From an uncultured Oscillospiraceae bacterium (GTDB lineage Bacteria > Bacillota > Clostridia > Oscillospirales > Oscillospiraceae), in NCBI GenBank assembly GCA_944385035.1, contig CALWVV010000002.1, forward strand, positions 1-64,000: 64,000 nucleotides of DNA, read 5' to 3'. This document shows, in pieces, positions 5,490 to 60,435 of this stretch. The translations under genes and the position numbers were made by a program. Every line of letters starts with the position of its first letter. Within the stretch, counting starts at the first letter, position 1. The notes beneath the pieces are model-generated. The model ran no database searches. It worked only from the letters and a program-made list of their open reading frames with translations, and was not told the origin of the DNA.

Positions 5490-5505
5490 GAAGGAGAAGC
5501 ACACG

Positions 5506-6141: not shown

Positions 6142-6153
6142 GAAACACCATAC

Positions 6154-6180: not shown

Positions 6181-6199
6181 GACACAATAAAATAAGCCC

Positions 6200-6292: not shown

Positions 6293-6304
6293 CATGGGAG
6301 ATAA

Positions 6305-6346: not shown

Positions 6347-6395
6347 GCCCTTTCGCGCTGCGCAGGCCACCGGAAATAGAAAGGATGTGTCCCGA

Positions 6396-7848: not shown

Positions 7849-7867
7849 GAGATAGGAGGCGCAGCCA

Positions 7868-9133: not shown

Positions 9134-9146
9134 GATCCTGTACGTA

Positions 9147-9243
9147 ACAGAATAGGAGGGCCGCGTGAAGTGTCAGCCGGATGGGAAGTTGCCGCTGAAC
9201 GAAAACCGATAAACGGTTGCGATGGTCCCTCCGCTTCCGCTGT
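9147..9243 (+). promoter_or_regulatory. THF riboswitch ahead of folT
   Basis: Signatures in order: GAATAGGAGGG, CCGCGTGAAGTG, GGATGGGAAGTTGCCG, GAACGAAAACCG and GGTCCCTCCGCT. ACAG and CTGT can close the outer stem. It starts only 13 bases after the folC stop. I see no U-tract terminator between it and folT, so control is more likely at translation initiation than by termination. Confidence 0.85.
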
Positions 9244-9322
9244 CGTCAGAGGAATTCTCCTTTGCGGCAACAGAAGAGAACAGAGAAAATCCGTATGAAA
9301 TGCCGAAAAGGAGAATATGATT

Positions 9323-9880: not shown

Positions 9881-9893
9881 ACAGAAACAATCA

Positions 9894-9928
9894 GCCCCCG
9901 GTTCTCGCTTGAGAGCCGGGGGCTTTTT
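9894..9928 (+). terminator. Intrinsic terminator after folT
   Basis: A 13-bp G/C-rich stem (9894-9906 with 9911-9923, one G-U pair) followed by five T residues. It ends the folate block and faces the convergent yoaK-type gene. Confidence 0.85.
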
Positions 9929-9940
9929 ACGATTGGGATA

Positions 9941-10609
9941 TTACTCTTTTACAGGGCGGAACAGCAGGAAAAAGACCGCCAGCAGAGGGAGACAGGCACA
10001 AAGGGCCGTCCGCGCCCCAAAGGCCAGAGACAGCCGCCCACAAAGGATTGCCCCCAGGGCAAAGGCCAGGATGAGCCGGTAAAAGACGGTAGCCTTTTCT
10101 CTGGACTGGGGGTCGGGGAGGGCCAGGAACTTATAGAGCAGCTCTGTGCCGCTTCTCAGGTTGCCCGTACACATAGTGGTGGCCCCGGCGCAGCCCCGGA
10201 ATTTGCGGAAGGTCTCCAACTGAACGGCGCTGGTGAAGGAGATCAGCACATTTGCTGCCCAGTCGGGCTCTCCCTGGGGGAGAAAGGATACCAGCACCAG
10301 GACCCCACATTCTGCTGCCACCAGAAACTGCCGCCAGTGGAGCCAATTGGGCCGGCCGGACACATGGCGGCGGATGGCCTCGGCGGTGAGGATGCCAAAG
10401 AAAAAGGCCAGGATAGGCAGCAGATAATGGAAAGCCATGGACCACCGGCCCATGGACAGGTGGACGCACAGCTGAACGATGTTTCCTGTCTCGGCTGTGG
10501 CAAACACCGCACCCCGGTTGACAAAACTGTATGCGTCCAGCATGCCGCCGGCAAAGGCCAGCAGCAGTCCTACCATCAGAGAGTCTGACATCTGTTTTTC
10601 GTGGGCCAT
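9941..10609 (-). CDS. YoaK/DUF1275-family membrane protein
   Basis: 222 residues. The DUF1275 signature is visible at the start (GLLLAFAGGMLDAYSFVNRG, then FATAETGNIVQL), with about six membrane helices and the family's internal NVLISFTSAVQLETFRKFRG and TTMCTGNLRSGTELL. The open frame runs further upstream, but ATG 10609 has a perfect GGAGGTG seven bases before it. Function in the family is unknown. The gene lies 70 bp downstream of pckA on the same strand, separated by a hairpin. Confidence 0.8.
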   Translation of the reverse strand: MAHEKQMSDSLMVGLLLAFAGGMLDAYSFVNRGAVFATAETGNIVQLCVHLSMGRWSMAFHYLLPILAFFFGILTAEAIRRHVSGRPNWLHWRQFLVAAECGVLVLVSFLPQGEPDWAANVLISFTSAVQLETFRKFRGCAGATTMCTGNLRSGTELLYKFLALPDPQSREKATVFYRLILAFALGAILCGRLSLAFGARTALCACLPLLAVFFLLFRPVKE

Positions 10610-42913: not shown

Positions 42914-43087
42914 ATGAAAGCAACTGGCATTGTCAGACGAATAGACGACCTGGGCCGTGTGGTCATTCCCAAAGAAATTCGGCGTACCATGCGGATTCGG
43001 GAGGGCGACCCGTCACAGACAACATGGTCATGGTGGGAAGGGTTTTGTTTTGGTATGCTCGACCTGCACGAACGAAGGGGCTGGTAG
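42914..43087 (+). pseudogene. Truncated AbrB/SpoVT-type regulator
   Basis: AGGAGG precedes ATG 42914. The first 32 codons are a clean SpoVT-AbrB swapped-hairpin DNA-binding start (MKATGIVRRIDDLGRVVIPK, then EIRRTMRIREGD). From 43010 the frame runs into the repeat and adds 25 unrelated, Trp/Gly-rich residues before TAG at 43085. The rest of the domain and any C-terminal sensory part are absent, both here and after the second repeat copy. It looks broken by the event that brought the island. Remaining DNA-binding ability is doubtful. Confidence 0.8.
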
Positions 43088-43091
43088 TGGT
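43005..43091 (+). repeat. Left copy of island-flanking direct repeat
   Basis: Bases 43005-43059 are identical over 55 nt to 58617-58671, in the same orientation. The next ~32 bases are similar but diverged. This copy lies inside the truncated AbrB gene. Read on the minus strand both copies give the same short peptide string (AYQNKTLPTMTMLSVTG), but no complete gene is present. Confidence 0.9.
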
Positions 43092-43166
43092 GCAGGGTGC
43101 GAGGTACATACTTCTCTCCAAATCCAGCCGTTCAGGCTGGTCAAAAAATGTGAGAATAGAGCATTT

Positions 43167-43204
43167 CCGCCGTTTCAATGTCAGGCATTGAGACGGCGGT
43201 TTTT
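43167..43204 (+). terminator. Terminator at island left edge
   Basis: A 14-bp stem with one G-U pair (43167-43180 with 43186-43199) followed by five T residues. It insulates the island operon from upstream transcription. The rest of the gap 43088-43439 holds the promoter at 43308 and AT-rich DNA with no gene. Confidence 0.8.
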
Positions 43205-43307
43205 GTACACAGGGAGAGTGAACGGTTATCGTTTTATGGGAGATGGAAGCTAATTACATCTAAAAATTCCCTTGGATTTTATTGGTTGGTTTCAACAAAC
43301 TGCCCAC

Positions 43308-43336
43308 TTGATAACTCCTCTGCGTGGCAGTATAAT
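43308..43336 (+). promoter_or_regulatory. Promoter of island operon
   Basis: TTGATA (43308-43313), 17-bp spacer, TATAAT (43331-43336), about 100 bp before the first island gene. No other good promoter was noticed up to the giant gene, so the six genes may form one ~15-kb transcript. Confidence 0.7.
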
Positions 43337-43439
43337 TCACTATGTATGCTTTGCCGTTTTCATAGCCTGTATCTAGGACGATATAGGACAGATTCCGGCG
43401 TAGGCGAGTTTTCCAATTTGTATGGAAAGCAGGTGAAGT

Positions 43440-44591
43440 ATGAACATCAGACGTTTGCTCATGATCATTCTGGTGATGGCAGAACTCTTTTTGCTTGCGG
43501 GCTGCAGCAAGGTCCAGGAGAACCGCGTCGTCATTGCGGTCATCGGTAATGAGGATGATTTATACCCCGGCTATCGAGAGGGAGCGGATATGGCTGCGGA
43601 AGAACTGCGCCGGATGGATGACGAATGTGGTTATACAATCGAATATCAGTTTTACAATTATGACGGCAGCTATGAGAAGGGCTCCGCCATCGTTGATATG
43701 CTGGCGGATGACGAAACGGTAACGGCGGTTGTGGGTGGAACAGACATGTCTTTGAACAAGACCGCGGCGTATGTGCTTGACAAGGCGGGAAAGGTGTTCG
43801 TTGTCCCATTTTTTCTGTATGACAGCGTATTTGACAACAATCACTATACCACGGTATTTTCCATGTGTAATTCCGGCCGTGAAGTTGGAGTTACGCTGTG
43901 CTATGCCGCGGAACAAACAACGGCGAAGCGCTGGGCGGTGTGCACGGCGGACCGAGAGTTTGAACGCACAGAGCTGCAGGGTTTTTTGGAGGCGCAGCAC
44001 AACGCGGGCATCGATGTGGTGGATTGTGTCAATAGTTCGGAGCTTCAAAATAACATGGATGAAGTATTTGGGCGCTGGGAGGTGCTCGGGGTAGAGGGCG
44101 TGGCGCTCTTCCCGGAAGACAAAGAGGGATTTGCGCTGTTGAAGGAAATCAAACGCCGCTGGCCCGCCATGATCTGTGCCGGAGACACTGCCTTTGATAA
44201 CAGCGAAATGCTGACAAACGATTCAGAGCTTATGGCGGCGATGAATGGTTTTATTATGGCAGACGAAGCGATTTTAGACTTTTCCACCCAGGAAGGGGTG
44301 GAGGCCTATAACACCCTCATTGAGGATTATACCCAACGCACCGGGAAAGAGATGGATACGTGGTATGTGCAGGGCTACAACGCGGTCCGGATGATTGGGG
44401 ATACGGCGGTGCGAAACGGGACAACCGATCCTGGGGCCATTGCGGCAGCGCTGCATGAAGACGGATATGCCGGTACCGCACAGAGCTTTCAATTCCAGGC
44501 CAATGGCAAGCTGGCCAATGCAGACAGAACCTACAATGTACTTGCGGCTGATGGTTATGCGGAACCATACATTTTTGCGGATGAGGGATGA
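43440..44591 (+). CDS. Substrate-binding-like lipoprotein of the island
   Basis: 383 residues. Lipobox FLLAGC (Cys22) predicts surface anchoring. The mature protein looks like a periplasmic-binding protein of the branched-chain amino acid/receptor type: VVIAVIGNEDDLYPGYREGA at the start, VTAVVGGTDMSLNKTAAYVL, and a late TWYVQGYNAVRMIGDTAV. No permease or importer ATPase accompanies it. Its neighbours are export proteins, so it may bind a peptide or signal at the surface, act in immunity, or sense. These roles are inference. It is the first gene of the island operon, four bases before the adaptor. Confidence 0.75.
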   Translation: MNIRRLLMIILVMAELFLLAGCSKVQENRVVIAVIGNEDDLYPGYREGADMAAEELRRMDDECGYTIEYQFYNYDGSYEKGSAIVDMLADDETVTAVVGGTDMSLNKTAAYVLDKAGKVFVVPFFLYDSVFDNNHYTTVFSMCNSGREVGVTLCYAAEQTTAKRWAVCTADREFERTELQGFLEAQHNAGIDVVDCVNSSELQNNMDEVFGRWEVLGVEGVALFPEDKEGFALLKEIKRRWPAMICAGDTAFDNSEMLTNDSELMAAMNGFIMADEAILDFSTQEGVEAYNTLIEDYTQRTGKEMDTWYVQGYNAVRMIGDTAVRNGTTDPGAIAAALHEDGYAGTAQSFQFQANGKLANADRTYNVLAADGYAEPYIFADEG

Positions 44592-44595
44592 GAGT

Positions 44596-45474
44596 ATGGA
44601 ATTATTTCGAAAAGAGGCGGTAGAAAGCTTTTCATCCAACGCAAAACTGAACGCCGGGGTACGGGCAATTTATATTAAAACGGCCGTGTTCCTGGTCCTG
44701 CTGCTGCTGTGTGCCGCGGCATTTGGTTACTGGCTTGTGTGCGGGACGATCTATGAAACGGTGACGGTGAGCGGTGCGGTATGGCCCATGAGCAATGGGG
44801 GGACCGTATACGCAACCTGCGGCGGGGTCGTATCCAAGACGGTTGTATCGGAGGGCGACATGGTAAAGGCAGGGGATATTTTGTTGATTATTCCCCAAGA
44901 CGATGTGCTCGCGGAACTTGAAGCAGCCAAACAGGCCGGTGTTTCCCAGGATGAATTGGAAGCGTTATATAAAAAATATGACGACCAATCCATGATCCGG
45001 GCTGCAATCGACGGGGCCGTTACATACATCACAGACGAGAACCGCTACATATCGGAAGGAGACGTGGTGGCGGCGGTGGTGCCCTATGACAAGGACGGAA
45101 ACAACCGCACACTGACCGCGTTTGTCCCCTCCTGCAGCAGCGGGTTTGTTACCCTGGGCATGGAGGTTCAGATCATGCCGGATTTTGCGCCCAGGGATAA
45201 GTACGGTTACATCGAGGGGTATGTTTCTGGCATCTCTGCCTATCCGGTCACCGGCCAGAGCGTGAAGGAGACGGGCGATGCTCTGTTTGCCGGCCTTGTG
45301 GAGGAGGCAGAAAGCTATCTGCCGGTGGAGATTACTTTGATTCCGGATATGGCGGCGAAAAGCGGCTTGAAATGGTCTAACCCGGCCAGCGGGACCATCG
45401 ACATCGCCATGGGAACGATTTGTACGGCGGATATCGTGGTGGAAAAATGCCGGCCATATGAATGGCTGTTCTAG
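44596..45474 (+). CDS. HlyD-type secretion adaptor (NHLM-like)
   Basis: 292 residues from ATG 44596, just after the preceding stop; the longer open frame overlaps that gene. One membrane anchor (about 28-50: AVFLVLLLLCAAAFGYWLVC), then a split biotinyl-lipoyl-like domain (GGVVSKTVVSEGDMVKAGDI and AAIDGAVTYITDENRYISEG) and a beta-barrel C-terminal part. The short middle lacks a long coiled coil, as in Gram-positive export adaptors of NHLM bacteriocin systems. It should link the ABC exporters to the cell envelope. Confidence 0.78.
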   Translation: MELFRKEAVESFSSNAKLNAGVRAIYIKTAVFLVLLLLCAAAFGYWLVCGTIYETVTVSGAVWPMSNGGTVYATCGGVVSKTVVSEGDMVKAGDILLIIPQDDVLAELEAAKQAGVSQDELEALYKKYDDQSMIRAAIDGAVTYITDENRYISEGDVVAAVVPYDKDGNNRTLTAFVPSCSSGFVTLGMEVQIMPDFAPRDKYGYIEGYVSGISAYPVTGQSVKETGDALFAGLVEEAESYLPVEITLIPDMAAKSGLKWSNPASGTIDIAMGTICTADIVVEKCRPYEWLF

Positions 45475-45483
45475 GAGGGGACC

Positions 45484-47625
45484 ATGAGCAGAATTCATAA
45501 GGTGCGTCCCATTCTGCAAATGGAGGCGACGGAATGCGGCGCGGCGTCTCTGGCCATGATTTTAGGCTATTACGGAAAAGCCGTGCCCCTGGAGCGTCTG
45601 CGCCGGGAATGCGGCGTCTCCCGAAACGGCGTCAACGCAAAGAGCATTGTGAAAGCAGCCAGGTACCATAGCCTGGAGACACGAGCAGTACGCACCAGCG
45701 TGGAAGGGGCAAAATCCCTGCGTACCCCGGCAATCATCCATTGGAATATGGACCATTTTTTGGTCCTGTGTGGCTTCGGCAGGGATGGGGTTGTCCTGGC
45801 TGACCCGGCGTACGGGATGAGAAAGGTGGGAATGGAGGAGTTCTCCCGATCCTTTACCGGAATTGCCATCGAGTTGAAGCCGTCGGAGACCTTTGAACGG
45901 GACCGGGGAGACCGGCGGGGTGCGGACTATATCAGCTCCTGCGTTCGGGAATTTTTGCCCTATGGAATCTATTTTGTCCTGCTTGAGCTGTGTATGGTAC
46001 TGGGCAGCGCCGCCATCCTGTTTTTGAATTCCGTATTTATCAACAAGATCCTGATTCAGGGCAACCTGCAAAACCTCACGGTTGTCCTGCTTACCCTGGT
46101 GTGCTCGGGATTGATGACAGCCGCGGCGATGCTGCTAAGCGAGGCCGTGGTGCACCGGCTTGGCAAGCAGCTGAATATGCGCATCAATGCGGGCTTTATC
46201 CGGCGCATGCTGCGGCTGCCCATTGAGTTTTTTGCCCAGCGCAGTGAAGGTGACCTGGTCAACCGGCAAAGCGGAAATATGCGTATGGGCGCCAGGATCT
46301 GCCGGACTCTTTCACCCATCCCTGGGTATGTGCTCCGGATTGCCGTGTATCTGGCCATTACGGTTATGTTTGATGTGCCCATTGCAATCATTGGCGTGGC
46401 CGTTGCCCTGGCAAATCTGGCGGCGGTGTGGATCAGCGCCAAAAAGCGGGAGGACGACATCCGCGCGTATAGCCGCGACGTAGGCGTGCTGCAAGGGGAC
46501 ATCTCCAGAACCATTGACGGCATCGAGACCATCAAATCCTGTGGGGCGGAGGATGTCACCTTTGTGCAGCTCACTTCCGCCGGGACGCAGGTGATCAACA
46601 ATAAGACACGCATGGACCAGACAGGCGTGTACACCACGGCGCTGTTCTCCTTTCTCAACGCCTTGTGTTCAGGGATGATCCTGATTGTGGGCGTTTGGGA
46701 GATTTTGTCCGGGGCCATCAGTACTGGCATTCTCATATCCCTGCAGGGAATTGTGGCGGCCATGCTGGAGCCGGTGGGCAATGTCGCCATGGCGGGCGTT
46801 GATTTGCAGACGCTGAAGGGACAGATCCTGCGTACCGATGATGTGATGCATTATGAAGAGGACAAGACGTTCCGGGAGGAAGACATGGAGCAGAGCCGGG
46901 ATGTAGACGGCGACATCGTTCTGGAGAATGTATCCTTTCGCTATTCGCCGTTGGAGCCGCCCTTCCTGTCTGACTTTCACCTGAAGATCCCCAAGGGAGG
47001 CAGTGTCGCCATCACCGGGGGCAGCGGCAGCGGAAAATCCACCGTGGCCAAGCTGATTGCCGGACTTTACCGGGAGGACGGCGGCAGCATCACCTTCCAT
47101 GGTATGCCCCGGGAGGAGATCAACCGGTATTACTTCTACGCAAAGGTGGCGGTGGTCAGCCAGAACATTCGCCTTTTCGAGGGAAGCGTCCTGGACAATA
47201 TCACCATGTGGGATCCGACCATACCCTATGAGGATGTGGTGGCGGCCACAAAGGCCGCATGCATCCATGAGGACATTATCCGCAGAAAAGATGGCTACCG
47301 GGAGATGGTGACGGAGAACGGCACCAACTTTTCCGGCGGACAGCGGCAGCGCATCGAGATTGCCCGGGCGCTGGTCAAAAAGCCGGCGATCCTGATTTTG
47401 GACGAGGCCACCAGCGCGCTGGACGCAGACACCGAGGAAACGATCATGGACAATATCCGAGCGCTGGGAATTACCCGGATCATCGTGGCCCACAGACTTT
47501 CTACCATCCTGGACAGCGACGAAATTCTGGTGATGGAAGAGGGCCGGATTGTGGAGCGGGGGACCCATGCTGCGCTCATGGAGAAAAACGGCGTGTACTG
47601 CGCTTTGGTAAGGAGCGTGAGGTGA
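45484..47625 (+). CDS. C39-peptidase ABC exporter (NHLM-like)
   Basis: 713 residues. Order: C39 double-glycine leader peptidase (1-~140) with catalytic Cys18 (MEATECGAASLAMILGYYG), His91 (NMDHFLVL) and Asp107 (LADPAYG); a six-helix exporter domain (~155-440); and an ABC ATPase with Walker A GGSGSGKST, signature FSGGQRQRIEIARAL and Walker B ILILDEATSALD. It should cut a leader after Gly-Gly and export the rest. All catalytic residues are present. The matching double-glycine peptide lies at the end of the operon (58199). Nine bases separate it from the adaptor gene. Confidence 0.92.
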   Translation: MSRIHKVRPILQMEATECGAASLAMILGYYGKAVPLERLRRECGVSRNGVNAKSIVKAARYHSLETRAVRTSVEGAKSLRTPAIIHWNMDHFLVLCGFGRDGVVLADPAYGMRKVGMEEFSRSFTGIAIELKPSETFERDRGDRRGADYISSCVREFLPYGIYFVLLELCMVLGSAAILFLNSVFINKILIQGNLQNLTVVLLTLVCSGLMTAAAMLLSEAVVHRLGKQLNMRINAGFIRRMLRLPIEFFAQRSEGDLVNRQSGNMRMGARICRTLSPIPGYVLRIAVYLAITVMFDVPIAIIGVAVALANLAAVWISAKKREDDIRAYSRDVGVLQGDISRTIDGIETIKSCGAEDVTFVQLTSAGTQVINNKTRMDQTGVYTTALFSFLNALCSGMILIVGVWEILSGAISTGILISLQGIVAAMLEPVGNVAMAGVDLQTLKGQILRTDDVMHYEEDKTFREEDMEQSRDVDGDIVLENVSFRYSPLEPPFLSDFHLKIPKGGSVAITGGSGSGKSTVAKLIAGLYREDGGSITFHGMPREEINRYYFYAKVAVVSQNIRLFEGSVLDNITMWDPTIPYEDVVAATKAACIHEDIIRRKDGYREMVTENGTNFSGGQRQRIEIARALVKKPAILILDEATSALDADTEETIMDNIRALGITRIIVAHRLSTILDSDEILVMEEGRIVERGTHAALMEKNGVYCALVRSVR

Positions 47626-47626
47626 C

Positions 47627-49750
47627 ATGGACGTACGGGAACAGAACGAACGAATCCGAGCCAAAAACCGCGAAGCCGTCTCCAAAGCCTATGAAAACAT
47701 AAATGCGGCCTTCCACGACCGGGAGGAGACCATAGGGATCAATGCGGTGCTCCGTTTTCTCCATGAGAAAGGGCGGCTGGACACCACAAAGCCTCTGTCC
47801 GGGCAGCTGAGGGAGCTTGCCCGGAGCTATCAGATCCGGACCAGGTATATCAACCTGGACCCGGACTGGTACACCCGGTGTGCCATTCCTATGCTGGTGA
47901 AAACAACGGACAAGCAGTGGCTGGCGGTGATCCCCGTGCCCGGCGGGCGCTGTGTCTATGTGGACGACACCGGGAAGCGGAAGGTCACAGCGGAAACTGC
48001 CCGGCAGTTTACCGACAACGCCATCGGCTTTTATAAGGTGTTTCCCAATGAAGCGTTGACCATGGGCGGGCTGGTTTCCTTCCTGATGAAATGTGTATCC
48101 AAGGGGGATGCCATGGCCATTCTGGCGGCCTCTGTCCTGACCACGCTGTCCGGGCTGCTTTTGCCGTGGATCAACAGCTTTCTCTTTGCCCATATCATAC
48201 CGGACGGAGAGGGGGATGGCATTCTGGCCGTGGCGGCGCTGATGCTGTCCGCGGTGACCACCGCGGCGGTGCTGCAGCTGGTACAGTCCCTGGTGCTGGC
48301 CAACTCCATGCTCCGGTGCAGCGTATATACCCAGAGCGCGGTTTTTTCCCGGCTGCTGGCACTGAGACCGGAATTTTTCAAAACGGTGCGCTCGGGCGAG
48401 TTGTCGGATATGATCACCCAGTTTTCCGACATCACCAACCTGATTTCCGGGAAAAGCATCCGTTCCTGCATTGGAATCCTGTTGTCTCTGGTGTATCTCA
48501 TCCAGATTAGCCACTATGCTCCGCAGCTGCTGGTGTGGGTTTTGCTCTTCACGCTCTTGCAGGCGGCGCTGATGGTGAGCGAAGGAATCCTGAATTTCCG
48601 CTGGAGTAAAGGTTATGCCGGGGCCCTGTCCCGGATGTCTGGCTTTTGTTATGAGCTGTTTTCCGGCATGGAACAGGTGAAGCTGAACGGTGCAGAGGTG
48701 CGGATGCTCCACCGCTGGAGCGAGTATTATCTGGATGTTTCCCGGAAGGAGAACAAGCCCGTCATGCTCCAGTATGCCTGCGTGTGGTACAAGCTTCTTC
48801 AGGTTTTGGCCACCGGGGTTATTTTCCTGTTCGGCGTGCGGCTGGCCGCCTCCGACTACATCGCATTTTCTTCTGCCTACGGAGCCTATCTGGCGGCCAG
48901 TGCCGGCGCATCGGTGCTGGTGCAGACCATCGCCTCGTTTCGGGCCTCGTACAGCATTCTCCGTCCCTTCTTTCAGGGGGAATGTGAGGAGTTTGAAGCG
49001 GGCAAAAAAAAGCCGGCGGCTTTTTCCGGGGAAATCACGGTGTCGGATGTCCGCTTTCGGTATAGCCCCGACGGCCCTTATGTGATTGACCGTCTATCCC
49101 TGCAGGTCCGCCCAGGGGAGAGTATTGGGATCATCGGCCCATCGGGCTGCGGAAAGTCCACCCTTGTCCGGCTGCTGCTGGGCTTGGAGAAGGCGGAGAG
49201 CGGAAGTATTTATCTGGACGGGCTTGATATACGGGAGCTGGATCTCCAATATTACAGAAGCAAAGTCGGCACGGTGCTGCAAAATACCAGACTGATCCCG
49301 GGGGATATTTACTCCAATATCACGATCATGAAGCCAAACGCCAGCATGGAGGAGGTTCAGCAGGCGGTAGACCTGGCCGGGCTGCGGGAGACCATAGCAT
49401 CGCTGCCCATGGGGCTGCACACGCCGGTCAGTGAGGAAAACAGTACCCTTTCCGGCGGTGAGCGCCAGAGGATTCTGATTGCCCGAGCGGTGCTGACCAA
49501 GCCGTCCATCCTGATTTTTGACGAGGCTACGTCTGCGCTGGATAACATCACCCAGGCGAATATCACCCGAGAGCTGAACAAGCTGAACTGCACCAAGCTG
49601 ATCGTAGCCCATAGGTTATCTACCATTGAGCCGTGTGACCGGATTTTAGTGATGGATCAAGGAGGAACTGTACAGTCTGGAAGTTATGAAGAGCTGAAAC
49701 GCACCAATGCGCTATTCCAGCGGCTGATCAAACGGCAGCTGTGTTCTTGA
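47627..49750 (+). CDS. Second ABC exporter (NHLM ATP-binding type)
   Basis: 707 residues. It lacks a C39 domain. Instead it has an N-terminal ~150-residue domain (NREAVSKAYENINAAFHDRE, later WLAVIPVPGGRCVYVDDTG) as in the second ABC protein of NHLM bacteriocin exporters. A six-helix domain follows, then an ATPase with Walker A GPSGCGKST, signature LSGGERQRILIARAV and Walker B ILIFDEATSALD. Both exporters have intact ATPase motifs and probably pair as a heterodimer. The start follows the previous stop after one base, so translation is coupled. Confidence 0.9.
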   Translation: MDVREQNERIRAKNREAVSKAYENINAAFHDREETIGINAVLRFLHEKGRLDTTKPLSGQLRELARSYQIRTRYINLDPDWYTRCAIPMLVKTTDKQWLAVIPVPGGRCVYVDDTGKRKVTAETARQFTDNAIGFYKVFPNEALTMGGLVSFLMKCVSKGDAMAILAASVLTTLSGLLLPWINSFLFAHIIPDGEGDGILAVAALMLSAVTTAAVLQLVQSLVLANSMLRCSVYTQSAVFSRLLALRPEFFKTVRSGELSDMITQFSDITNLISGKSIRSCIGILLSLVYLIQISHYAPQLLVWVLLFTLLQAALMVSEGILNFRWSKGYAGALSRMSGFCYELFSGMEQVKLNGAEVRMLHRWSEYYLDVSRKENKPVMLQYACVWYKLLQVLATGVIFLFGVRLAASDYIAFSSAYGAYLAASAGASVLVQTIASFRASYSILRPFFQGECEEFEAGKKKPAAFSGEITVSDVRFRYSPDGPYVIDRLSLQVRPGESIGIIGPSGCGKSTLVRLLLGLEKAESGSIYLDGLDIRELDLQYYRSKVGTVLQNTRLIPGDIYSNITIMKPNASMEEVQQAVDLAGLRETIASLPMGLHTPVSEENSTLSGGERQRILIARAVLTKPSILIFDEATSALDNITQANITRELNKLNCTKLIVAHRLSTIEPCDRILVMDQGGTVQSGSYEELKRTNALFQRLIKRQLCS

Positions 49751-49787
49751 TAAAGGGAGAAATAAAGGGAGAAAGAAGTGAAGTCAA

Positions 49788-52700
49788 ATGACAAGAAAAC
49801 GAAGAGGTTGGCTGAAACGAAGCGTCAGCTCCGTTTTGACAGCGGCTATGCTCCTGACCATGATTCAGGTCCCCACCGTTGCAGCCAACAAAATGGATGT
49901 GTATCTGCCGGAAAACGAGATGGAAGAGGACATCCTCGCCAGCGACGTGTTCTACCTGGCAACGGCCAGCGCCCAGCTGCAGGAGGGGGACGGAGCGCGC
50001 TACCTTCTGCGCCTGGCCAGAGGCGGGGATGCAGCTACCCCTGCGGGCGTTACCGTCAAGATTTCTGATCTTACCGCCAAATATGGCAAGGATTATACCA
50101 TTTCCATTTTGGGCAGCGACGAGAAGGTGAACAATCCCTCGGACAACGAGTCTCTTCTGGAGATGATGGAAGGGGAGGAGTACACCGAGAGCGAGCTGGT
50201 GACAGAGGAGGATTATCTGTCCCAGATGGAAGAGGACGACGAACTGTACCAGGCGACGGTAGATGCCTACAACGACACCATCGAGTACATTGAGGCTACA
50301 AGCGGTGTCGGCGAGGTGGAACATCCGGCGTCTGAGGATACCTCTGCCGCGCAGCCGGAAGAGGACGGGGAGGAACCCACCGACCAGCCTGAGCAGGGGG
50401 GAGAAGAGGAGCCCGCCGACCAGCCCGAGCAGGGCGGAGACGAGGAGCCCGCTGACCAGCCTGAGCAGGGTGGGGAAGAGGAGCCCGCCGACCAGCCTGA
50501 GCAGGGCGGGGAAGAGGAGCCTGCCGACCAGCCCGAGAAGGGTGAGGAAGAAGCTTCCGATGAGGATAAAACAGGCTACGTCGATCCCTTGCAGCAAGCC
50601 AGAAGCCTGTTTACCGGCATTCAGGGCCAGCCTCAGCAGGTGACGTCTACCACCGATACCTTCCAGCAGATCCAGGATATCGCCAACGTGATCACCAACG
50701 CGGTGGTGGGTGCGACCCTGACCGTGGATTTTGACGCTGGAGAGACAGAAAAGTATCTTGTCATCGATGTGAAGGATAACCGGAAGGGGGACGGCACCCG
50801 GTATTTTTACCTGATGCTGGGGGAACCCTACGGCACCACCACCAACAGCGCCGCTTCCAGCTGCGCGTTTACCATTCTGGATGACGAGGAACAGTCTGCC
50901 TCTGTGGTAGAGCTTGGGGAGAGCGACTACTACGCCGAGGGGGATACCCTCACCGTTGAAGTGGTGCGAGATGGGGCGCTCAACACCATTGCCGAGGCCA
51001 AGCTGACGACGGAAAGCGGCTCTGCCCAGGCGGGGCGGGATTTTTCACCGGTGGATATGTCGGTGGTGTTCCCCATGGGCATCGACAAGCGCACCATTGA
51101 GATCCCCATCCGCACCGACTACTTCGTGGGGGAAGCAGATTTCAGTCTGCACCTGGAGGCGGTCAGCGGCTGTACAATCGGCAACGATTCCGCACAGGTC
51201 ACCATGACCGGCACTGCCGGTACCACGGCGGAAAACGGCTCTGCGTCCTTGCTCTCCGTGGAGCAAAGTGCCCGTGTGTCCGATATTGAGCTGGGAACGC
51301 CCATAAGTCTGGCCAATCCGGTCAAAGTAGGAAGCACCAGCTACTTTGGCGGCAGTAACTATTATGATTCCGGTGTCCCACAGTGGGTTGAAAGATGGGA
51401 GGACAATTTTAGCGGCTGGGATCATTTCTGGGGAGCTGAGGCAGAAGGAACCACAGGAGCGGGCTGGACCCTGGCCACGAACCACGGTGCCGACATTGCC
51501 GGTGTGCAAGTGGACTGGGCAAAATCCGGAAGCTGTGCCACCATATGGGCGTCCTTTGTGGGCTCGGGAAGCCGAGACATCCCCTGGAACTACTATAACG
51601 GTGAATATGTCTATAACAGCAATGCCAAATTCAACGACGGAACCAAGACAAACATGTTCTGTACGTTTTGGGACCCGGTTCGGATTGGCATCCGGAACCA
51701 TGGAAATTGCAATGACTGTGATACCCTGTGGATTCACAGCATTACCCCCATTTACCGGCCCTTTGTGGTAAATCTGCAAAATGCGGATCCCCTGAAATTC
51801 CTCAACGCCGACGGCACCTATTCCACCTGGAGCGATGCCACCTTCCTGGCCATCGCCGGCGCTAACAACGACACCAATAATCAGGTGGTGCGCTACTCCA
51901 AGGAGGGGAAAAATGCCGTCACGCTGCAGCAGACGGTGGGAAAGAACGTCTCTACCCCCTATACCTATCTGAAAAGTGTAAAGATGGTCAAGGATGGCTA
52001 CACCAGAAGCATCGCCTACTACGGCAATGACGGCACGAGCTCCCACACCTTTACCATGGACTCCAACTGGATCGACAGCAATCGCAGCTACATTTACTTT
52101 GAGGAGAACAACGTCTCCGAGGCGTGGAAGAACCAGACCGGAACCTTTGGAATGCGGGGAAGAATCGAACTCAAACCAGAGTTTGGATATAAGAATGTAA
52201 AGGTAAAGATCAACGTGCCGGAGAACAACTTCGGATATTTCAACGTCAGCGGCACCAATCGGGATCTTGCCTACTCCCAGACCTTTACCTATCACATGGG
52301 CGATATCATCAAGCTGTCCACAGTGATGCGGGAGGAATACAAGGATCTCTATACCCCTGCCGGCTACATGGTCAGCTACAAGTACAATGAGTCGGATACC
52401 AACTGGGTCAAGCGGGACGTGATCGTGCCTTACAGCCTGGAGGACGGGACCAGCCAGTACCTGGACGACAACCAGCGGCTGCGCTATGGATATTATGAGA
52501 TTACCCCCTTGTTTGCCCGGAACGACAATGCCATTGTGGTGCGCGTCCGGGAGGACAATCTGTGGATGTGCGACCAGTCCTACGGAATCTTTACCACGCC
52601 CTATGTGGAGCATACCGAAATCGACGGAGTCCGGTATAATGACTACATCGTGTATGGTGACCCGGTGTATGGAAAGATCTACTCCCTCTCCGCCAGACCT

Positions 52701-55700
52701 TCCAGCCAGGCGGGAAGCGCAAGTTACAACTTCTGGACGGAACCGGGCAGCGACAAGACCTATACCGGGGAAGTGTTTTTCCACGAGGCCTCCAACGATC
52801 CCCAGCGGAATGTGATCGAGCTGACCATCCAGTACGACTACTATGGTGACTTCTATCAGGAAATCACAGGCAGCGTTTACCGGCCCAGCTATAACATGAC
52901 CACAAAGCAGGTGGGCTACACCAATATGCTGCCGGCCGCCGGCGCCATCGTAAACTTCGGCACTTCCTTTGCGGTGGTGGATCAGGAAGGCAATTTCAAA
53001 ATTCCGCTGTTCCGGTCCATCAACGATCACGACCAGTCCGATCAGCCCCACTATATCCGTTACACCATTGCTTATAATGGGGAGGAAACGCTGCAGGAGA
53101 TGCGCCTGTCCCACGTCAATCATTACAGCCGGGAGGAGCATACCTTCACGGTAACGGACAAAAACGGCGCGATATCCACCCAGACAAAGTCCATCCAGGT
53201 CAATAAGCTGGGCATCGGGCAGCAGCTGATCAACACGGAAAACGGAAGCATTATCAATAACATCGAGGTATATACCGACGCGGTGAACCAGGGGTATAAC
53301 CTGGTTTTAGATGGAGACAGTCTGACCATCCGGGCGCGGTGTACCTCCCCGGTGAAATATACCCAGCAGACCGTCTCGTCCGACGGCACACTGGTCGAAA
53401 TCCCCAATGCCCTTGAAAACGTGACGGGGATCGAATTTGTGATCTACGACGCGGCTACAAATGTGGAAATCGCATCGTATCCCGCCCAGAAGCAAGGGGA
53501 GGAGTTTGTGGCCAATGTGTCCCTCTCCCAGGCGCTGCCGGGAAACCGGCTGTATCTGAGGGTCACCACGGACCGGTCCCATGCGGTGTACGGATCCTAT
53601 GACGAAAATGGCAATCTGATCCAGATTGAAAGCGGCGACGACATGAATAGCACCACCTATGCCGACGTGTTCACGGGGTATGCCTTCACCCAGAAGAACA
53701 CCGAGAAGGTTCCTGTGCTGCAGCATGTGGATCTGCCCATCACCATGGACTTTTTGGAGCTGCCCCTGTTGGGCGACACCGGGATGGCCTTCGACTTCCC
53801 CTTCGTGTCCGTAGGCAGCATCAAAACGGATACCGGATACCGGATGTACATCGGCGTCAGTGCGGGCCAGATCGCGGATAAGGTGCAGCATACCCACATG
53901 ACCTCCTATGCCGGAGACACCGGGGCCTACTATAAGGACATGTTCTCCATCGGTCACCCGATTCAGTCCTTCAAGGAAGGTCTGGCGGCCTCCTACAACA
54001 ACATCTTCAAGGATGTGCCCAAGCTGTATGACGGAGCTACCTCCGCCCTGGGCGCTCCCACCTGGAAGTTTGACGTACAGATCGGCGTTTACTTCGACTT
54101 TACCTACATGCAGGTCACCAATCCCAACAACGGCGCTGTGGATACAAGCTGTATCTTCACCGGCGTGGGCGGGTATATCGGCGTAGCGGCCGGAGTAAAA
54201 ATGGCCTGGTACACCATCCTTCCCGTGGTGTTCATCCCGGCGTACTTCGGTCTGGAGATCAGCGGCAACGTGCTGGGCTTCTTCGGCGCGGGCACGGATA
54301 CCTCCAAGCCCGACATCACCTATGATGCCGCCAACAACGCCACGGTGGACTTTGACGACAAGCTGGGAGAGTTCAACGCCTCCGTGCAGCTGGGCGCCAC
54401 GGTTCAGGTCTACGTGGGCGTTGGCCTTGCGGGGACCCTGGGCCTGAGAGGCGGCGGCAGTCTCAGCGCCATGGGCCTTTGGGAGCCCTCTGAGCTGGTG
54501 TCCGACTGGGGCTGTGTCTTGACCTTCAAGGCGGGAATCTGGGTTGATCTTTTCCTGTTCTCGGTTCCTCTCCAATACACGCTGGCGGAGATGAAGTTCG
54601 GCTCCTTCGAGGAGTATGACAGCCTCTCCGCGCTGGCGGCGCAGGCTAGTATGAACGGCGTGGACGATTCCCTGTCCTTCTCTCTGCGGGAGCCCTACGA
54701 TGACAAGGCGTCTGTCTGGCTGCCCAACGAGCCGTCGCCCATGTCCGGATTCAACGAGACATCGGCGCAGACCATTGTGGCAAACGGATATGAGCACCCG
54801 GAAGTGCAGCTGCTTAAGCTGGCGGACGGCAGCGTGTTTATGGCGTTTTTGGACAGCGACCAGACCCGCAGCTCCCTGGACAGAGCTGTGCTGAAGTTTG
54901 CCACCTACCGCAACGGAGAATGGAGCGAGCCCGTTGTGGTGCAAGAGGACGGCACCGCGGACTTCCAGCCCAGTATCTGTGAGATGGACAACAGCAAAGT
55001 CATGATCTCCTGGCTGTCCTATGACCCGGATACGGAGGTCACGGAGGATGCGGCGGACTATCTGTCCAAGCTGGAGGTATATACCGCCGTCATCGACCCG
55101 GCAAGTGGCACCGTGAGCGAGAAGACCAGACTCACCTATGACCAGTACTACGACTACACGCCCGTGTCCGTCTATGACGACGAGACCGGGGACCGAGCCG
55201 TGTATTACGTCAAGACCGCCTCTTCCGGCAGCGCGGAGGATATGGTCAACTCCTACACCAATGACTGTGTGATCGTGTATATGCTCTACTCCAAGGATCA
55301 GGGAAGATGGCTGTTTGACTACTACTATGACAATGAGGTGGCCAGCGAGGAGGACGAGGAAATCCTCATCGAAAAGTGGCATGGACAGCGCTTCCTGTCC
55401 TCGCCCATTCCGGAACTGGGGTTGGATGTGCCCAATATCTCCGACTTTACCGCCATCGCCTATAACGGAATTGCGGTCTATGCCTATACCATTGACCAGG
55501 ACTCCTCCAACGATACTGCCTTCGACAAGGAGCTCTTTGTCCAGTTCTACGATTTTAAGAGCCATAAAACCTACGTCCCCGTGCGGCTGACGGATGACAA
55601 CTTGTCTGACGCCCTGCCGCAGCTGGTCCGCTCCGGCACCGGAACGGATGCCAGTACCAAGCTGTTCTGGTACCGGGACGAAAAAGAGATTGCCTACATG

Positions 55701-58175
55701 GACCTGACCACCCTGATTAAGGAAGGCATCGATGACAACGGACAGATCAAGGACGACTATCTCACCGGAAACGACGGAGTGAAGCGGGGCCTCGACTCCC
55801 TGTACTCCTATGTGGCGCCTGGGGTGGACAACTATCAGGGCTCCCGGTCCATGGCCGATTTCAAGGCGGTAACGGACGGGTACGACATCTATGTGGTCTG
55901 GACGCAGCCCTGCACCACGGATGCGGTGGATGAGGACGGCAACCCGGTGCAGTGCCGGGAGGTCTATGCCACCGCCTTGATTCAGGAGGAGAAGGAGGCA
56001 GGCAGCGGTGGAGCAGAGGAAGACTCGACCGACGGCGGAATGACCTGGGCCGATCCTTACCGGCTGACCTATACGGGTGCCTTTACCGATGAGCCCGCAG
56101 CCGTGATTGACGATGAGGGCAATATGGTGGTACTCTATAACCAGTATAGGCAGACCATCACGGAAAATCCGGAATATCCCGTTGTCATTTCAGACTTTAA
56201 GCTCCGGGCCTCCTACATGGAGCCCTGCGGCGCGGTGGATGTGACGGGTATTACCTATTCCGATGAAACGCCCAACGAGGGAGACACCATCGAACTGAAC
56301 GTGGAAGTGAAGAACAACGGTCTGACCTATGCCGACGGCTACACTGTGCAGCTTTACGAGGTGAAGGATGGCACCCAGGGAGCCTTGATTGAGAGCCTCA
56401 CTTCGGATCGCAAGCTCCTCCCCGGAAATACGGACGGCTACACCGTTTCCTGGACGGTTCCCCAGGACTATGAGGGTGTGAGCATCTATGCGGTGGCGCA
56501 AGAGGGAGGCATGAAGAATGTCTCGGAGTATGAGAGTGAGCCCCTTGTAAAAGATGCGGTATATGAGATCAGTGATCTGACTACCTACCAGGATGACGAG
56601 GGCTACCGGATCTTCTACACGGTGACCAACACAGGCAATACGGTGTCCACCGCCGAAGATGTGTTCTGTGTGATGTTCAGCGGCCCCTACGGCCTGGCGT
56701 GGGATTATTCCGAGGCGGAGCGGGAGCTGGCCAGTATCTCCATGGAGGGCATTGCCCCCGGTGAGAGCAAGACCTTTGATGAAGCCCTGAGCGTGAAACC
56801 GGAGTTTTTTGACCGGTATGGGTTTGTGGATGCCATTGCGGTGGGAATGGATGAGGAGGGTGTGTACCTGACGGACGGCGATGAGATCCGTCTGATGGCA
56901 GGAAAGCCCCTTGCCCTCATGCTGAATGGGGAGGAGTTCCCTGAGACCATCACCGTGAGAGCCGGAGAGACCATGGAATTTGACGTGACCTGTGCCCCTG
57001 CCAGCCTGAACGATCAGATGAAGGCTGTGTTTGGCACACAGGACACCTCCGTGGCGGTGTTTGAGGGTACCACGCTGAAGGCGCTGAATGTGGGTACCAC
57101 CACCATTTACGGCTCGGTGTCTCCCTATGGAAACCAGATCCAGGCCATTACCCTCAACGTAGTGGACGAGTCGGAGCCGCTTCCTCCCTCGGGAGAGGAC
57201 GACGACTCCTCTGGTGACAAGACCAACACCGTGACCACCTCCGATGGTACTACCATCACCACCGTGACCCATTCGGACGGGGCCACTACGGTGACCACCG
57301 AGGCGAAAAACGGCGTTTCTTCCGTTGTGGAAACCAGTAAAAACGGCAAGGTTACCGCCCAGGTCAAGGTACCTGACGCGGTAGCAAATGAGGCCGCGGC
57401 TGCCGGTGAGACTGTGACAATCCCCATGCCCGCCGTCCCTGTGGCTCCGGACAGAGGGGACGCCGCCTCCATCACCGTGGATCTGCCCGCGGATACCGCC
57501 GTCAAGCTGGAGATTCCCGTGGCCGGAGTGACCGCCGGCACCGTAGCCGTGCTGGTTGGAGCTGACAGTGTAGAGAAGGTCATTCGGACCTGTATCGTGA
57601 CCGAAAAGGGCGTGGTTGCCACCCTGTCTGATGGGAATACCATCAAAATTGTGGACAACAGCAAGCACTTTGTCGATGTGCCCGCCTCCTACTGGGGCTT
57701 CGATGCGGTGGCCTTTGCAACCAGCCGTGAGCTGTTCAGTGGTACCAGCGCCGCCACCTTCAGTCCCGATGACGCTATGACCCGCGCCATGATCGTTACC
57801 GTGCTGGCCAGCTGCTATGATGTGGATACCACAACCGGCCAGGAGTGGTATGAGGCCGGTGCCCAGTGGGCGGTGGAGAACGGAGTGTCGGATGGTACCA
57901 ACCTGAATCACACCGTGACCCGTGAGCAGATTGCCACAATGCTGTGGCGTCTTGCGGGAAGTCCCATGGCGGATGAAAGCGCCCTGTCTGGATATCCGGA
58001 CCGTGCGTCCATCAGCGAATGGGCTGTCCAGGCTGTGGCCTGGGCCGTGTCTGCCGGTATCATCGCTGGAAACGACACCGGTGAACTTCTGCCCCAGAGC
58101 AACGCAACACGGGCGCAGGTGGCGGTGATGCTTCAGCGCTACCTGGAAAATGAAGCGGGAAAAGAATCCGCTTAA
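49788..58175 (+). CDS. Giant SLH-anchored surface protein (2795 aa)
   Basis: A signal peptide (SVSSVLTAAMLLTMIQVPTV, cleavage near residue 33) predicts Sec export. Order: a Calx-beta-like segment (~40-100), an acidic Glu/Pro repeat (five 12-residue units, 195-254), Calx-beta-like domains (~318-475), a long beta-rich middle, a carboxypeptidase-regulatory-like piece (~1060), sialidase/beta-propeller-like repeats (~1660-2120: LADGSVFMAFLDSD; GGMTWADPYRLT; DDEGNMVVLYNQYRQ), a CARDB-like domain (~2148-2238), a Big-2-like domain (~2378-2458) and three C-terminal SLH domains (~2625-2790). It should be wall-attached, an adhesin- or scaffold-like protein. No catalytic motif was recognised. It lies between the exporters and the peptide. 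Confidence 0.88.
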   Translation: MTRKRRGWLKRSVSSVLTAAMLLTMIQVPTVAANKMDVYLPENEMEEDILASDVFYLATASAQLQEGDGARYLLRLARGGDAATPAGVTVKISDLTAKYGKDYTISILGSDEKVNNPSDNESLLEMMEGEEYTESELVTEEDYLSQMEEDDELYQATVDAYNDTIEYIEATSGVGEVEHPASEDTSAAQPEEDGEEPTDQPEQGGEEEPADQPEQGGDEEPADQPEQGGEEEPADQPEQGGEEEPADQPEKGEEEASDEDKTGYVDPLQQARSLFTGIQGQPQQVTSTTDTFQQIQDIANVITNAVVGATLTVDFDAGETEKYLVIDVKDNRKGDGTRYFYLMLGEPYGTTTNSAASSCAFTILDDEEQSASVVELGESDYYAEGDTLTVEVVRDGALNTIAEAKLTTESGSAQAGRDFSPVDMSVVFPMGIDKRTIEIPIRTDYFVGEADFSLHLEAVSGCTIGNDSAQVTMTGTAGTTAENGSASLLSVEQSARVSDIELGTPISLANPVKVGSTSYFGGSNYYDSGVPQWVERWEDNFSGWDHFWGAEAEGTTGAGWTLATNHGADIAGVQVDWAKSGSCATIWASFVGSGSRDIPWNYYNGEYVYNSNAKFNDGTKTNMFCTFWDPVRIGIRNHGNCNDCDTLWIHSITPIYRPFVVNLQNADPLKFLNADGTYSTWSDATFLAIAGANNDTNNQVVRYSKEGKNAVTLQQTVGKNVSTPYTYLKSVKMVKDGYTRSIAYYGNDGTSSHTFTMDSNWIDSNRSYIYFEENNVSEAWKNQTGTFGMRGRIELKPEFGYKNVKVKINVPENNFGYFNVSGTNRDLAYSQTFTYHMGDIIKLSTVMREEYKDLYTPAGYMVSYKYNESDTNWVKRDVIVPYSLEDGTSQYLDDNQRLRYGYYEITPLFARNDNAIVVRVREDNLWMCDQSYGIFTTPYVEHTEIDGVRYNDYIVYGDPVYGKIYSLSARPSSQAGSASYNFWTEPGSDKTYTGEVFFHEASNDPQRNVIELTIQYDYYGDFYQEITGSVYRPSYNMTTKQVGYTNMLPAAGAIVNFGTSFAVVDQEGNFKIPLFRSINDHDQSDQPHYIRYTIAYNGEETLQEMRLSHVNHYSREEHTFTVTDKNGAISTQTKSIQVNKLGIGQQLINTENGSIINNIEVYTDAVNQGYNLVLDGDSLTIRARCTSPVKYTQQTVSSDGTLVEIPNALENVTGIEFVIYDAATNVEIASYPAQKQGEEFVANVSLSQALPGNRLYLRVTTDRSHAVYGSYDENGNLIQIESGDDMNSTTYADVFTGYAFTQKNTEKVPVLQHVDLPITMDFLELPLLGDTGMAFDFPFVSVGSIKTDTGYRMYIGVSAGQIADKVQHTHMTSYAGDTGAYYKDMFSIGHPIQSFKEGLAASYNNIFKDVPKLYDGATSALGAPTWKFDVQIGVYFDFTYMQVTNPNNGAVDTSCIFTGVGGYIGVAAGVKMAWYTILPVVFIPAYFGLEISGNVLGFFGAGTDTSKPDITYDAANNATVDFDDKLGEFNASVQLGATVQVYVGVGLAGTLGLRGGGSLSAMGLWEPSELVSDWGCVLTFKAGIWVDLFLFSVPLQYTLAEMKFGSFEEYDSLSALAAQASMNGVDDSLSFSLREPYDDKASVWLPNEPSPMSGFNETSAQTIVANGYEHPEVQLLKLADGSVFMAFLDSDQTRSSLDRAVLKFATYRNGEWSEPVVVQEDGTADFQPSICEMDNSKVMISWLSYDPDTEVTEDAADYLSKLEVYTAVIDPASGTVSEKTRLTYDQYYDYTPVSVYDDETGDRAVYYVKTASSGSAEDMVNSYTNDCVIVYMLYSKDQGRWLFDYYYDNEVASEEDEEILIEKWHGQRFLSSPIPELGLDVPNISDFTAIAYNGIAVYAYTIDQDSSNDTAFDKELFVQFYDFKSHKTYVPVRLTDDNLSDALPQLVRSGTGTDASTKLFWYRDEKEIAYMDLTTLIKEGIDDNGQIKDDYLTGNDGVKRGLDSLYSYVAPGVDNYQGSRSMADFKAVTDGYDIYVVWTQPCTTDAVDEDGNPVQCREVYATALIQEEKEAGSGGAEEDSTDGGMTWADPYRLTYTGAFTDEPAAVIDDEGNMVVLYNQYRQTITENPEYPVVISDFKLRASYMEPCGAVDVTGITYSDETPNEGDTIELNVEVKNNGLTYADGYTVQLYEVKDGTQGALIESLTSDRKLLPGNTDGYTVSWTVPQDYEGVSIYAVAQEGGMKNVSEYESEPLVKDAVYEISDLTTYQDDEGYRIFYTVTNTGNTVSTAEDVFCVMFSGPYGLAWDYSEAERELASISMEGIAPGESKTFDEALSVKPEFFDRYGFVDAIAVGMDEEGVYLTDGDEIRLMAGKPLALMLNGEEFPETITVRAGETMEFDVTCAPASLNDQMKAVFGTQDTSVAVFEGTTLKALNVGTTTIYGSVSPYGNQIQAITLNVVDESEPLPPSGEDDDSSGDKTNTVTTSDGTTITTVTHSDGATTVTTEAKNGVSSVVETSKNGKVTAQVKVPDAVANEAAAAGETVTIPMPAVPVAPDRGDAASITVDLPADTAVKLEIPVAGVTAGTVAVLVGADSVEKVIRTCIVTEKGVVATLSDGNTIKIVDNSKHFVDVPASYWGFDAVAFATSRELFSGTSAATFSPDDAMTRAMIVTVLASCYDVDTTTGQEWYEAGAQWAVENGVSDGTNLNHTVTREQIATMLWRLAGSPMADESALSGYPDRASISEWAVQAVAWAVSAGIIAGNDTGELLPQSNATRAQVAVMLQRYLENEAGKESA
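50370..50549 (+). repeat. Five 36-bp coding tandem repeats
   Basis: Five in-frame 36-bp units encoding EEPADQPEQGGE-like dodecapeptides (first unit has Thr for Ala, last ends EKGEE). Third-position changes between units show selection on the protein. It forms an acidic, proline-rich spacer, a typical site of copy-number variation between strains. Confidence 0.93.
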
Positions 58176-58198
58176 TTGCAGAAAGGAATGAATTTATC

Positions 58199-58351
58199 AT
58201 GAAAGAAAAGAATCTCCCTCTGGATGAGAAAGAGACCCAGGAGCTTGACCTGGACGAGCTGGAGCAGGTGACAGGCGGAAACAACGCCTTTGCCGATGTG
58301 CCCAGAGTACCTCAGCACGATATTGACGACTCCCTGAGAGAGAAGATTTAA
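58199..58351 (+). CDS. 50-residue double-glycine leader peptide
   Basis: AAAGGA precedes ATG 58199, 23 bases after the giant gene. The first 27 residues are an acidic leader ending LDLDELEQVTGG, the classic form cut by C39 peptidases: hydrophobic residues at spaced positions and Gly-Gly at the site. The predicted mature peptide is 23 residues, NNAFADVPRVPQHDIDDSLR plus EKI. It has no Cys or Trp, is net acidic, and has Ser but no Thr, so it is a poor lantibiotic core. It is probably the substrate of the exporter at 45484. Function (bacteriocin, signal, or partner of the giant protein) is unknown. Confidence 0.8.
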   Translation: MKEKNLPLDEKETQELDLDELEQVTGGNNAFADVPRVPQHDIDDSLREKI

Positions 58352-58421
58352 AGCTTGCGGACAAAAGGGAAGGATCTCCATAAGCGAGATCCTATTGAAA
58401 CGTAAAACGAGGTCGAGTAAG

Positions 58422-58470
58422 CAACGGGTTTGCCGCCTGCCAAAAGCAGGCGGCAAACCCGTTGGCTTTT
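58422..58470 (+). terminator. Strong terminator of island operon
   Basis: A perfect 19-bp stem (58422-58440 with 58446-58464) with CAAAA loop and CTTTTT after it. The remainder of the gap 58352-58800 holds the right repeat copy and otherwise AT-richer DNA with no gene I can see. Confidence 0.93.
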
Positions 58471-58616: not shown

Positions 58617-58704
58617 GCGACCCGTCACAGACAACATGGTCATGGTGGGAAGGGTTTTGTTTTGGTATGCTGGATTTGAACAATCGACGAGGATGGTAGT
58701 AGTG
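58617..58704 (+). repeat. Right copy of island-flanking direct repeat
   Basis: 58617-58671 are identical to 43005-43059. The similarity continues, diverged, to about 58704. Together the copies enclose 15.6 kb. No AbrB remainder, integrase or transposase adjoins this copy. Confidence 0.9.
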
Positions 58705-60363: not shown

Positions 60364-60435
60364 AACAGTAACTTCCTTTCTATGTTGCGTGTTGTGGTCA
60401 AAAGGTCTTCCCGACAACTTTCATGGCTTTTATTA

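Follow-up and report, generated by a model that had tools for sequence, protein, structure and literature searches.

We examined a 64,000-nucleotide stretch of DNA (hereafter the window; positions 1 to 64,000 of the forward strand of contig CALWVV010000002.1, assembly GCA_944385035.1) from an uncultured gut bacterium of the Oscillospiraceae, in which the genes of a peptide exporter, a giant surface protein and a short Gly-Gly leader peptide stand in one operon. Direct reading revealed six open reading frames, all open and all on the plus strand. In order, they encode a substrate-binding-type lipoprotein matching Peripla_BP_6 in Pfam (43440..44591, the lipobox read by eye), a short HlyD-type adaptor (44596..45474, alternative start 44581), a C39 peptidase-containing ATP-binding cassette (ABC) exporter with intact active-site residues (45484..47625), a second ABC exporter subunit without a Peptidase_C39 match (47627..49750), a giant surface protein of 2795 residues (49788..58175) and a precursor peptide of 50 residues (58199..58351); the three exporter proteins were assigned by Pfam and NCBIfam. 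A promoter-like site, TTGATA-17-TATAAT, agreeing with the consensus at 11 of 12 positions, lies upstream on the same strand (43308..43336); the scan returned 2 promoter-like sites against 1.0 expected in shuffled sequence, and therefore the site is regarded as a consensus match and not as proof of function. An intrinsic terminator with a 19-pair stem (58422..58464, plus strand) follows the peptide gene, and its stem was the longest among 14 terminator-like sites (7.5 expected). Gene order, strand, promoter match and terminator had been described in an earlier note on this DNA, and the reading of the frames, with which Pfam and NCBIfam agreed, bore the description out. The modification enzyme that the note had reported missing was indeed not found among the six genes between promoter and terminator, a negative that covers the operon and not the rest of the genome. 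A homologue of the lipoprotein also precedes the exporter in genome G318 and in loci L130 (there in two frames) and L182-L187. Locus L164 (13662-15500) encodes a fusion between a binding protein and a prolipoprotein diacylglyceryl transferase (LGT) domain.

The precursor peptide consists of a 27-residue Gly-Gly leader and a core bearing the motif PRVP...IDDSLREKI. Read by eye, the leader fits the pattern of PCAT substrates, with Leu at -12, Glu at -8, Leu at -7, Val at -4 and the Gly-Gly pair. The pattern, as excerpted from PMC12184118, has a hydrophobic residue at -12 (Ile and Val being named), Glu at -8, Met at -7, Val at -4 and Gly-Gly, and the window leader deviates from the named residues by Leu for Ile/Val at -12 and Leu for Met at -7. 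Cleavage is predicted after Gly-Gly and would leave the 23-residue core NNAFADVPRVPQHDIDDSLREKI. In blastn, the orthologous locus L128 from the same genus was 84% identical to the window from 44505, where the L128 locus starts, to 58351, with a gap at 50295-50581, and the similarity stopped at the last base of the peptide stop codon. Core codons of the window and six relatives, compared in 21 pairs, differed by 128 synonymous and 83 non-synonymous changes, and the non-synonymous rate (dN) was below the synonymous rate (dS) in all 13 of these pairs with a computable dS, the pairs not being independent of one another. These counts used 7 of the 11 loaded peptides, all with the core type of the window, and in these 7 loci the core is under purifying selection. 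Pro, Pro, Ile and Asp were at fixed places in 17 of 17 cores of this type. The end of similarity at the stop codon, the bias towards synonymous changes and the shared core residues together establish that the 50-residue frame is a real gene.

Alignment of 37 peptides (made without L151, L155 and L163) revealed that Cys and Trp were absent from all of their cores, and Trp was present in one peptide found later (L210). A core free of Cys excludes lanthionine, thiazole and sactipeptide chemistry in it. Core length was 20-31 residues (33 measured), and net charge ranged from -6 to +5 across the measured cores, that of the window being -2. No NCBIfam or Pfam family covered the core, and a search for copies of the core inside the giants gave nothing above 2.5 bits. 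The window's own genome yielded one peptide in total in the peptide search.

The C39 ABC protein carries Peptidase_C39 (118.6 bits) and ABC domains in Pfam, and its residues 10-707 matched the bacteriocin transporter chain 4ry2. The catalytic residues Q12, C18, H91 and D107 were all in place, and the His-Asp spacing was that of PCAT1, as far as the PCAT1 residues are quoted in PMC12184118. The exporter thus has the C39 Gln/Cys/His/Asp residues and the ABC exporter fold by which a PCAT is recognised. The earlier note had assigned it to the NHLM bacteriocin exporters; this label needs care, since all three exporter proteins scored below the curated cut-offs, namely 128.9 against 156.2 bits for HlyD (TIGR03794), 754.5 against 853.3 bits for the C39 ABC protein (TIGR03796) and 585.7 against 709.4 bits for the second ABC protein (TIGR03797). 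The TIGR03797 cut-off was passed in 11 of 295 genomes drawn evenly from the order. A nitrile-hydratase-like or Nif11-like leader gave no NCBIfam match for the window peptide at E up to 0.1, and was absent from the families listed for the 37 peptides at E up to 0.01. NHLP/NHLM systems (TIGR03794/03796/03797), as portrayed in the excerpt from PMC2887384, resemble the window in having HlyD, the C39 ABC protein and the second ABC protein in a row with a Gly-Gly leader peptide nearby. The window differs from them by its sub-cut-off scores, by the lack of a nitrile-hydratase or Nif11 leader match and of a modification enzyme in the operon, and by having a giant surface protein as recurring partner.

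The giant comprises a Sec-type signal (by eye), Calx-beta domains, a large family-specific core, CARDB and an SLH anchor. The SLH match (67.9 bits, Pfam) fell on two stretches at the C-terminal end and identifies the protein as an SLH wall protein. Among 16 giants scanned, Calx-beta was found in 16, SLH in 9, CARDB in 7, dockerin in 2 and leucine-rich repeats in 2, and the giants of genomes G131 and G184 end, by eye, in a sortase-like motif followed by a hydrophobic stretch and a basic tail. Since the anchors (SLH, dockerin, sortase-like tail) are exchangeable between lineages, the conserved function would reside in the core of the giant and the peptide, and not in attachment. The most conserved part within the family, at about residues 1680-1980, matched nothing in Pfam and nothing convincingly in the PDB; profile matches to PDB entries fell mainly on the SLH, Calx-beta, CARDB, Ig-like or C-terminal regions. 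Other proteins of the own genome matched the giant only from about residue 2464 to the end. A search among relatives with the whole giant was swamped by the SLH end and was repeated without it. Known SLH-anchored surface proteins have the C-terminal SLH, Calx-beta and CARDB domains in common with the giant, which differs from them in that most of its family-specific core lacks a Pfam or PDB sequence match and in its linkage to a peptide exporter. A 36-nt tandem repeat within the giant gene (window 50334-50563) encodes an acidic EEPADQPEQGG-type linker.

In the even draw, pieces of the giant matched in 25 of the 295 genomes (E up to 0.001), the second ABC protein in 22 (E up to 1e-120) and the peptide family, at E < 1e-10, in 7, these being G000 (the genome of the window), G318, G137, G303, G283, G184 and G131. 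All seven carry exporter genes and a giant beside the peptide. Two of them are split by contig ends: in G318 the substrate-binding protein, HlyD, both ABC proteins and the start of the giant lie at the end of one contig and the rest of the giant and the peptide start another, and a short contig of G137 starts within the second ABC gene, passes through the peptide and breaks off in the first part of the giant. The earlier note had proposed a search for this co-occurrence elsewhere; it was found in every genome of the draw with a strong peptide match, and the same or a slightly shuffled order recurs in Oscillospiraceae, Ruminococcus, Monoglobus, Lachnospiraceae and Paenibacillaceae. Counted by genome, a giant accompanies roughly one in three of the exporters that match strongly (7 of 22). 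Three weaker peptide matches (3e-6 to 5e-6), mainly to the leader, were located in the giant-free exporter loci L111, L117 and L119. These loci, together with L116 and L120, carry related dual-ABC exporters without a giant and with several Gly-Gly peptides each. STAS or SpoIIE-like genes lie near the exporters of L111, L119 and L120, and L116, L117 and L119 carry a large protein resembling 5'-nucleotidase by eye.

A scan of public genomes with a conserved stretch of the giant (A2) as query returned 54 giant loci, nearly all from metagenome genomes, which span Oscillospiraceae, Ruminococcus, Monoglobus, Lachnospiraceae, other Clostridia and one member of Paenibacillaceae. A profile built from five peptides and then iterated detected a homologous peptide in 36 of the 54 loci, in L147 only after iteration; L142, L162 and L163 repeat training peptides. 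The peptide was on the strand of the giant in all 36 and within 360 nt of it in 33, the exceptions being L134 (1.3 kb), L160 (a tandem pair, 1.6-1.8 kb) and L173, where the giant is in pieces. It lies 3' of the giant in most loci and 5' of it in L158, L160-L163, L166, L168, L173 and L177. In a control set of 34 loci around SLH proteins (125 kb), the best peptide scores were 3.9 bits with the starting profile and 2.4 bits with the iterated one. In the Paenibacillaceae genome G348 (L207), the peptide is directly 5' of a 3145-residue giant with Calx-beta and SLH, and after two other genes come a binding protein, HlyD, a C39 exporter and the start of a second ABC gene, where the stretch ends.

The exporter was likewise associated with the peptide. 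An exporter of matching type (>120 bits) was present in 18 of the 36 peptide-bearing loci as compared to 0 of the 18 peptide-free ones (Fisher p 1.3e-4), many loci being cut by contig ends. In this count the ABC pair of L159 (181/190 bits) was treated as generic, and counting it otherwise would raise the peptide-free loci with an exporter from 0 to 1 of 18; partial ABC pieces below 120 bits (L149, L158, L181) were left out. When the genomes of 24 loci were searched, a full-length C39 exporter was found in 11 of 12 with the peptide, including those of L128 and L130, whose exporter already lay in view, and in 5 of 12 with a peptide-free locus, along with one fragment (p 0.027); one of the latter five genomes, G348, holds the peptide elsewhere. 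Genomes G334-G337 contain a second giant that has an exporter operon, including the same binding lipoprotein, either ahead of it or facing it; the peptide of this operon was in view only in G334.

Divergence of the parts was compared for 33 of the 37 aligned peptides, leaving out the second copy of L160, L173, L081 and L082. Core distance correlated with giant distance (r 0.77, n=33), with a partial correlation of 0.72 given the leader; the corresponding values for leader distance were 0.42 and 0.19. For the 12 of these loci whose exporter is complete, core divergence followed that of the giant (partial 0.45) and not that of the exporter (-0.04).

On these comparisons, peptide, exporter and giant are inherited together and very probably form a conserved module. 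The recurring pairing in many related bacteria suggests a so far undescribed form of cooperation between peptide and giant. The best reading makes the peptide a partner dedicated to the giant and exported separately from it, from which we infer contact between the two; for direct action of the peptide on the giant the chances appear about even. The operon would then specify a two-part cell-surface system, in which the C39 exporter would cut the leader and send out a linear, Cys-free peptide of about 20-30 residues, and this peptide would bind the wall-held giant outside the cell as a ligand, an assembly factor or a displayed piece. A neighbouring subtilase may trim the peptide or the giant in some lineages: seven loci have a subtilase-like gene close by, which lies between peptide and giant in L160 (2892-4367) and L193 (12279-13709) and beside the pair in L154 (8058-9419), L161 (2454-3836), L177 (2579-3952), L178 (9833-12085) and L210 (7759-9129), with Pfam confirming L154 and L178. 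We tentatively propose, at somewhat less than an even chance, an undescribed Gram-positive surface machine in which a C39-exported linear peptide is the subunit or ligand that completes a Sec-exported giant, with exchangeable anchors (SLH, dockerin, sortase) and sometimes a dedicated subtilase, spreading through Clostridia and Paenibacillaceae as a unit. The earlier note had envisaged a peptide exported unmodified and tied to the giant; this part stands as the best reading, given the recurrence, the missing enzyme and the Cys-free cores, and the NHLM name for the exporter is to be used with caution, given its scores. No published description of the gene set was found in the open-licence full-text literature, a coverage outside which lie most subscription papers and all bioRxiv preprints.

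Several observations weigh against a dedicated partnership of peptide and giant. The correlation of core with giant is the pattern of a peptide fitted to its giant, but shared ancestry, which is still in the correlations, can also produce it. In the same 12 full-exporter loci the leader, too, tracked the giant (partial 0.43) better than the exporter (0.07), contrary to what one would expect of a leader adapted to its exporter. The PRVP...IDD core type was present in only about half of the 37 aligned peptides, the rest having a looser shared tail or a different core, and part of the coherence of the family comes from the leader. Through the leader, unrelated Gly-Gly peptides from 16 giant-free exporter loci reached 24.0 bits with the starting and 30.6 bits with the iterated profile; with the latter, 35 of the 36 giant-linked peptides scored above 30.6 bits, the weakest being L164 at 30.4 and the next 33.6 and 33.9. 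The earlier note had named loci normally lacking either the giant or the peptide as a finding that would speak against it. All 7 strong peptides stood beside a giant, which upholds the note; 18 of the 54 giant loci had no adjacent peptide, which goes partly against it. Among the genomes of these 18, five held the peptide elsewhere, one gave a leader-only match, and in 12, all drafts, none was found; thus giants can apparently occur without the peptide. A search of genome G338 (L141), which carries both peptide and giant, yielded no complete C39 exporter. On a tree of the giants, the peptide label changed 8 times against a shuffled mean of 13.2, with 1 of 500 shuffles as low, and therefore the peptide is clustered, yet repeatedly gained or lost. 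The tree had 53 rows; it omitted L173 and L180, carried L150 and L170 without a label, and showed L148 and L175 as peptide-free though their genomes hold the peptide elsewhere. No region specific to peptide-bearing giants stood out, and peptide-free giants keep the whole architecture; together with the 12 draft genomes, this indicates that the peptide is unneeded for the architecture of the giant.

Gly-Gly peptides exported by C39 transporters are usually interpreted as bacteriocins or pheromones. As a pheromone, the exported peptide would accumulate and be detected by a kinase, which in turn would activate surface genes, for example that of the giant. The conserved core and weak matches of the leaders to ComC and BlpC models are consistent with this, as are a GHKL kinase and a LytTR regulator by the giant-peptide pairs L131 and L132, by the C39 exporter of L188 and by the peptide-free giant of L171, and other kinases near L076 and L193. 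However, the operon in the window holds no kinase or regulator, four kinase/regulator queries matched in only 5 of the 72 loci searched (with limited flanks), and core divergence tracks the giant, so that we consider a pheromone rather unlikely. A bacteriocin or contact-dependent toxin, displayed by the giant or secreted beside it, would share the exporter class and Gly-Gly leader of class II bacteriocins, and a weak Bacteriocin_IIc match (E 0.0096) covered the leader region. This explanation is very unlikely in view of the 37 aligned cores without Cys or Trp, the core charge of -2 in the window, a core that is conserved rather than variable in the 7 tested loci, and PADLOC, which returned generic ABC-ATPase matches only; in addition, no immunity-like gene was noticed, no systematic search for one having been made.

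Peptide and giant might also be merely linked, both being surface-bound products of one operon with no mutual action. Such linkage would accommodate the 18 loci with a giant and no adjacent peptide, genome G333, where the exporter lies apart from the peptide-giant pair, and L208, which also counts against the partnership, since there the peptide type and exporter flank a 2354-residue beta-helix protein (2937-10163) unrelated to the giant. It is nevertheless quite unlikely, as the two genes stay adjacent in two bacterial classes and despite reshuffled gene orders, with the peptide before the giant in some clades and after it in others. Finally, the product could be modified by an enzyme encoded elsewhere, since the closest exporter type is NHLM/NHLP, and the excerpt from PMC2887384 interprets the precursors of that type as modified peptides. 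Against this stand the 37 Cys-free cores and the operon of the window, to which the search for such an enzyme was confined and which contains none, and we regard it as extremely unlikely.

Among described systems, MAM of Faecalibacterium and its PCAT, as far as the excerpts of PMC12184118 and PMC8836110 portray them, are alike in belonging to gut Clostridia, in the Gly-Gly leader substrate, in a PCAT and HlyD gene nearby in some strains and in a product that has been reported from the cell envelope. In that system the envelope protein is MAM itself, with about 113 residues after the leader; in the window, by comparison, the exported piece would be about 23 residues long, and a second protein, the giant of 2795 residues, is the one at the envelope. 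Class II bacteriocins and the ComC/BlpC pheromones share a short Gly-Gly precursor and a C39 ABC exporter with the peptide family, which differs from them in a Cys-free, proline-containing, mostly not cationic core and in its pairing with a giant gene.

An 88-nt direct repeat brackets the operon, with the left copy at 43005..43092 and the right copy, 89% identical, at 58617..58704, both on the plus strand; a weaker third copy is at G000:C2:85989. The left copy comes after a short frame starting at 42914, which looks AbrB/SpoVT-like by eye; Pfam gave no match for frame 42957-43250, which overlaps it. The repeat pair may be a trace of acquisition of the module. No empty insertion site was found among congener loci, 4 of which matched the right flank and 0 the left (L206 was not compared). 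Within the own genus, the giant core was present in 2 of 64 genomes, with one further weak partial match, and thus the module is accessory. Viral contigs gave 20 pattern matches, none related to the peptide, and plasmids gave no match to the giant DNA or to the peptide. An aromatic amino acid lyase gene adjoins the operon (window 58801-60417, minus strand) and a second similar copy lies downstream (G000:C2:64098-65660), both near a sigma-54 activator sequence.

The peptide family is thus widespread and Cys-free, and has a giant surface protein as its recurring partner. If peptide and giant indeed act together, some of the unexplained small Gly-Gly genes of gut Clostridia would be candidates for surface assembly and not for warfare, and the giant family would gain a first handle on its function.

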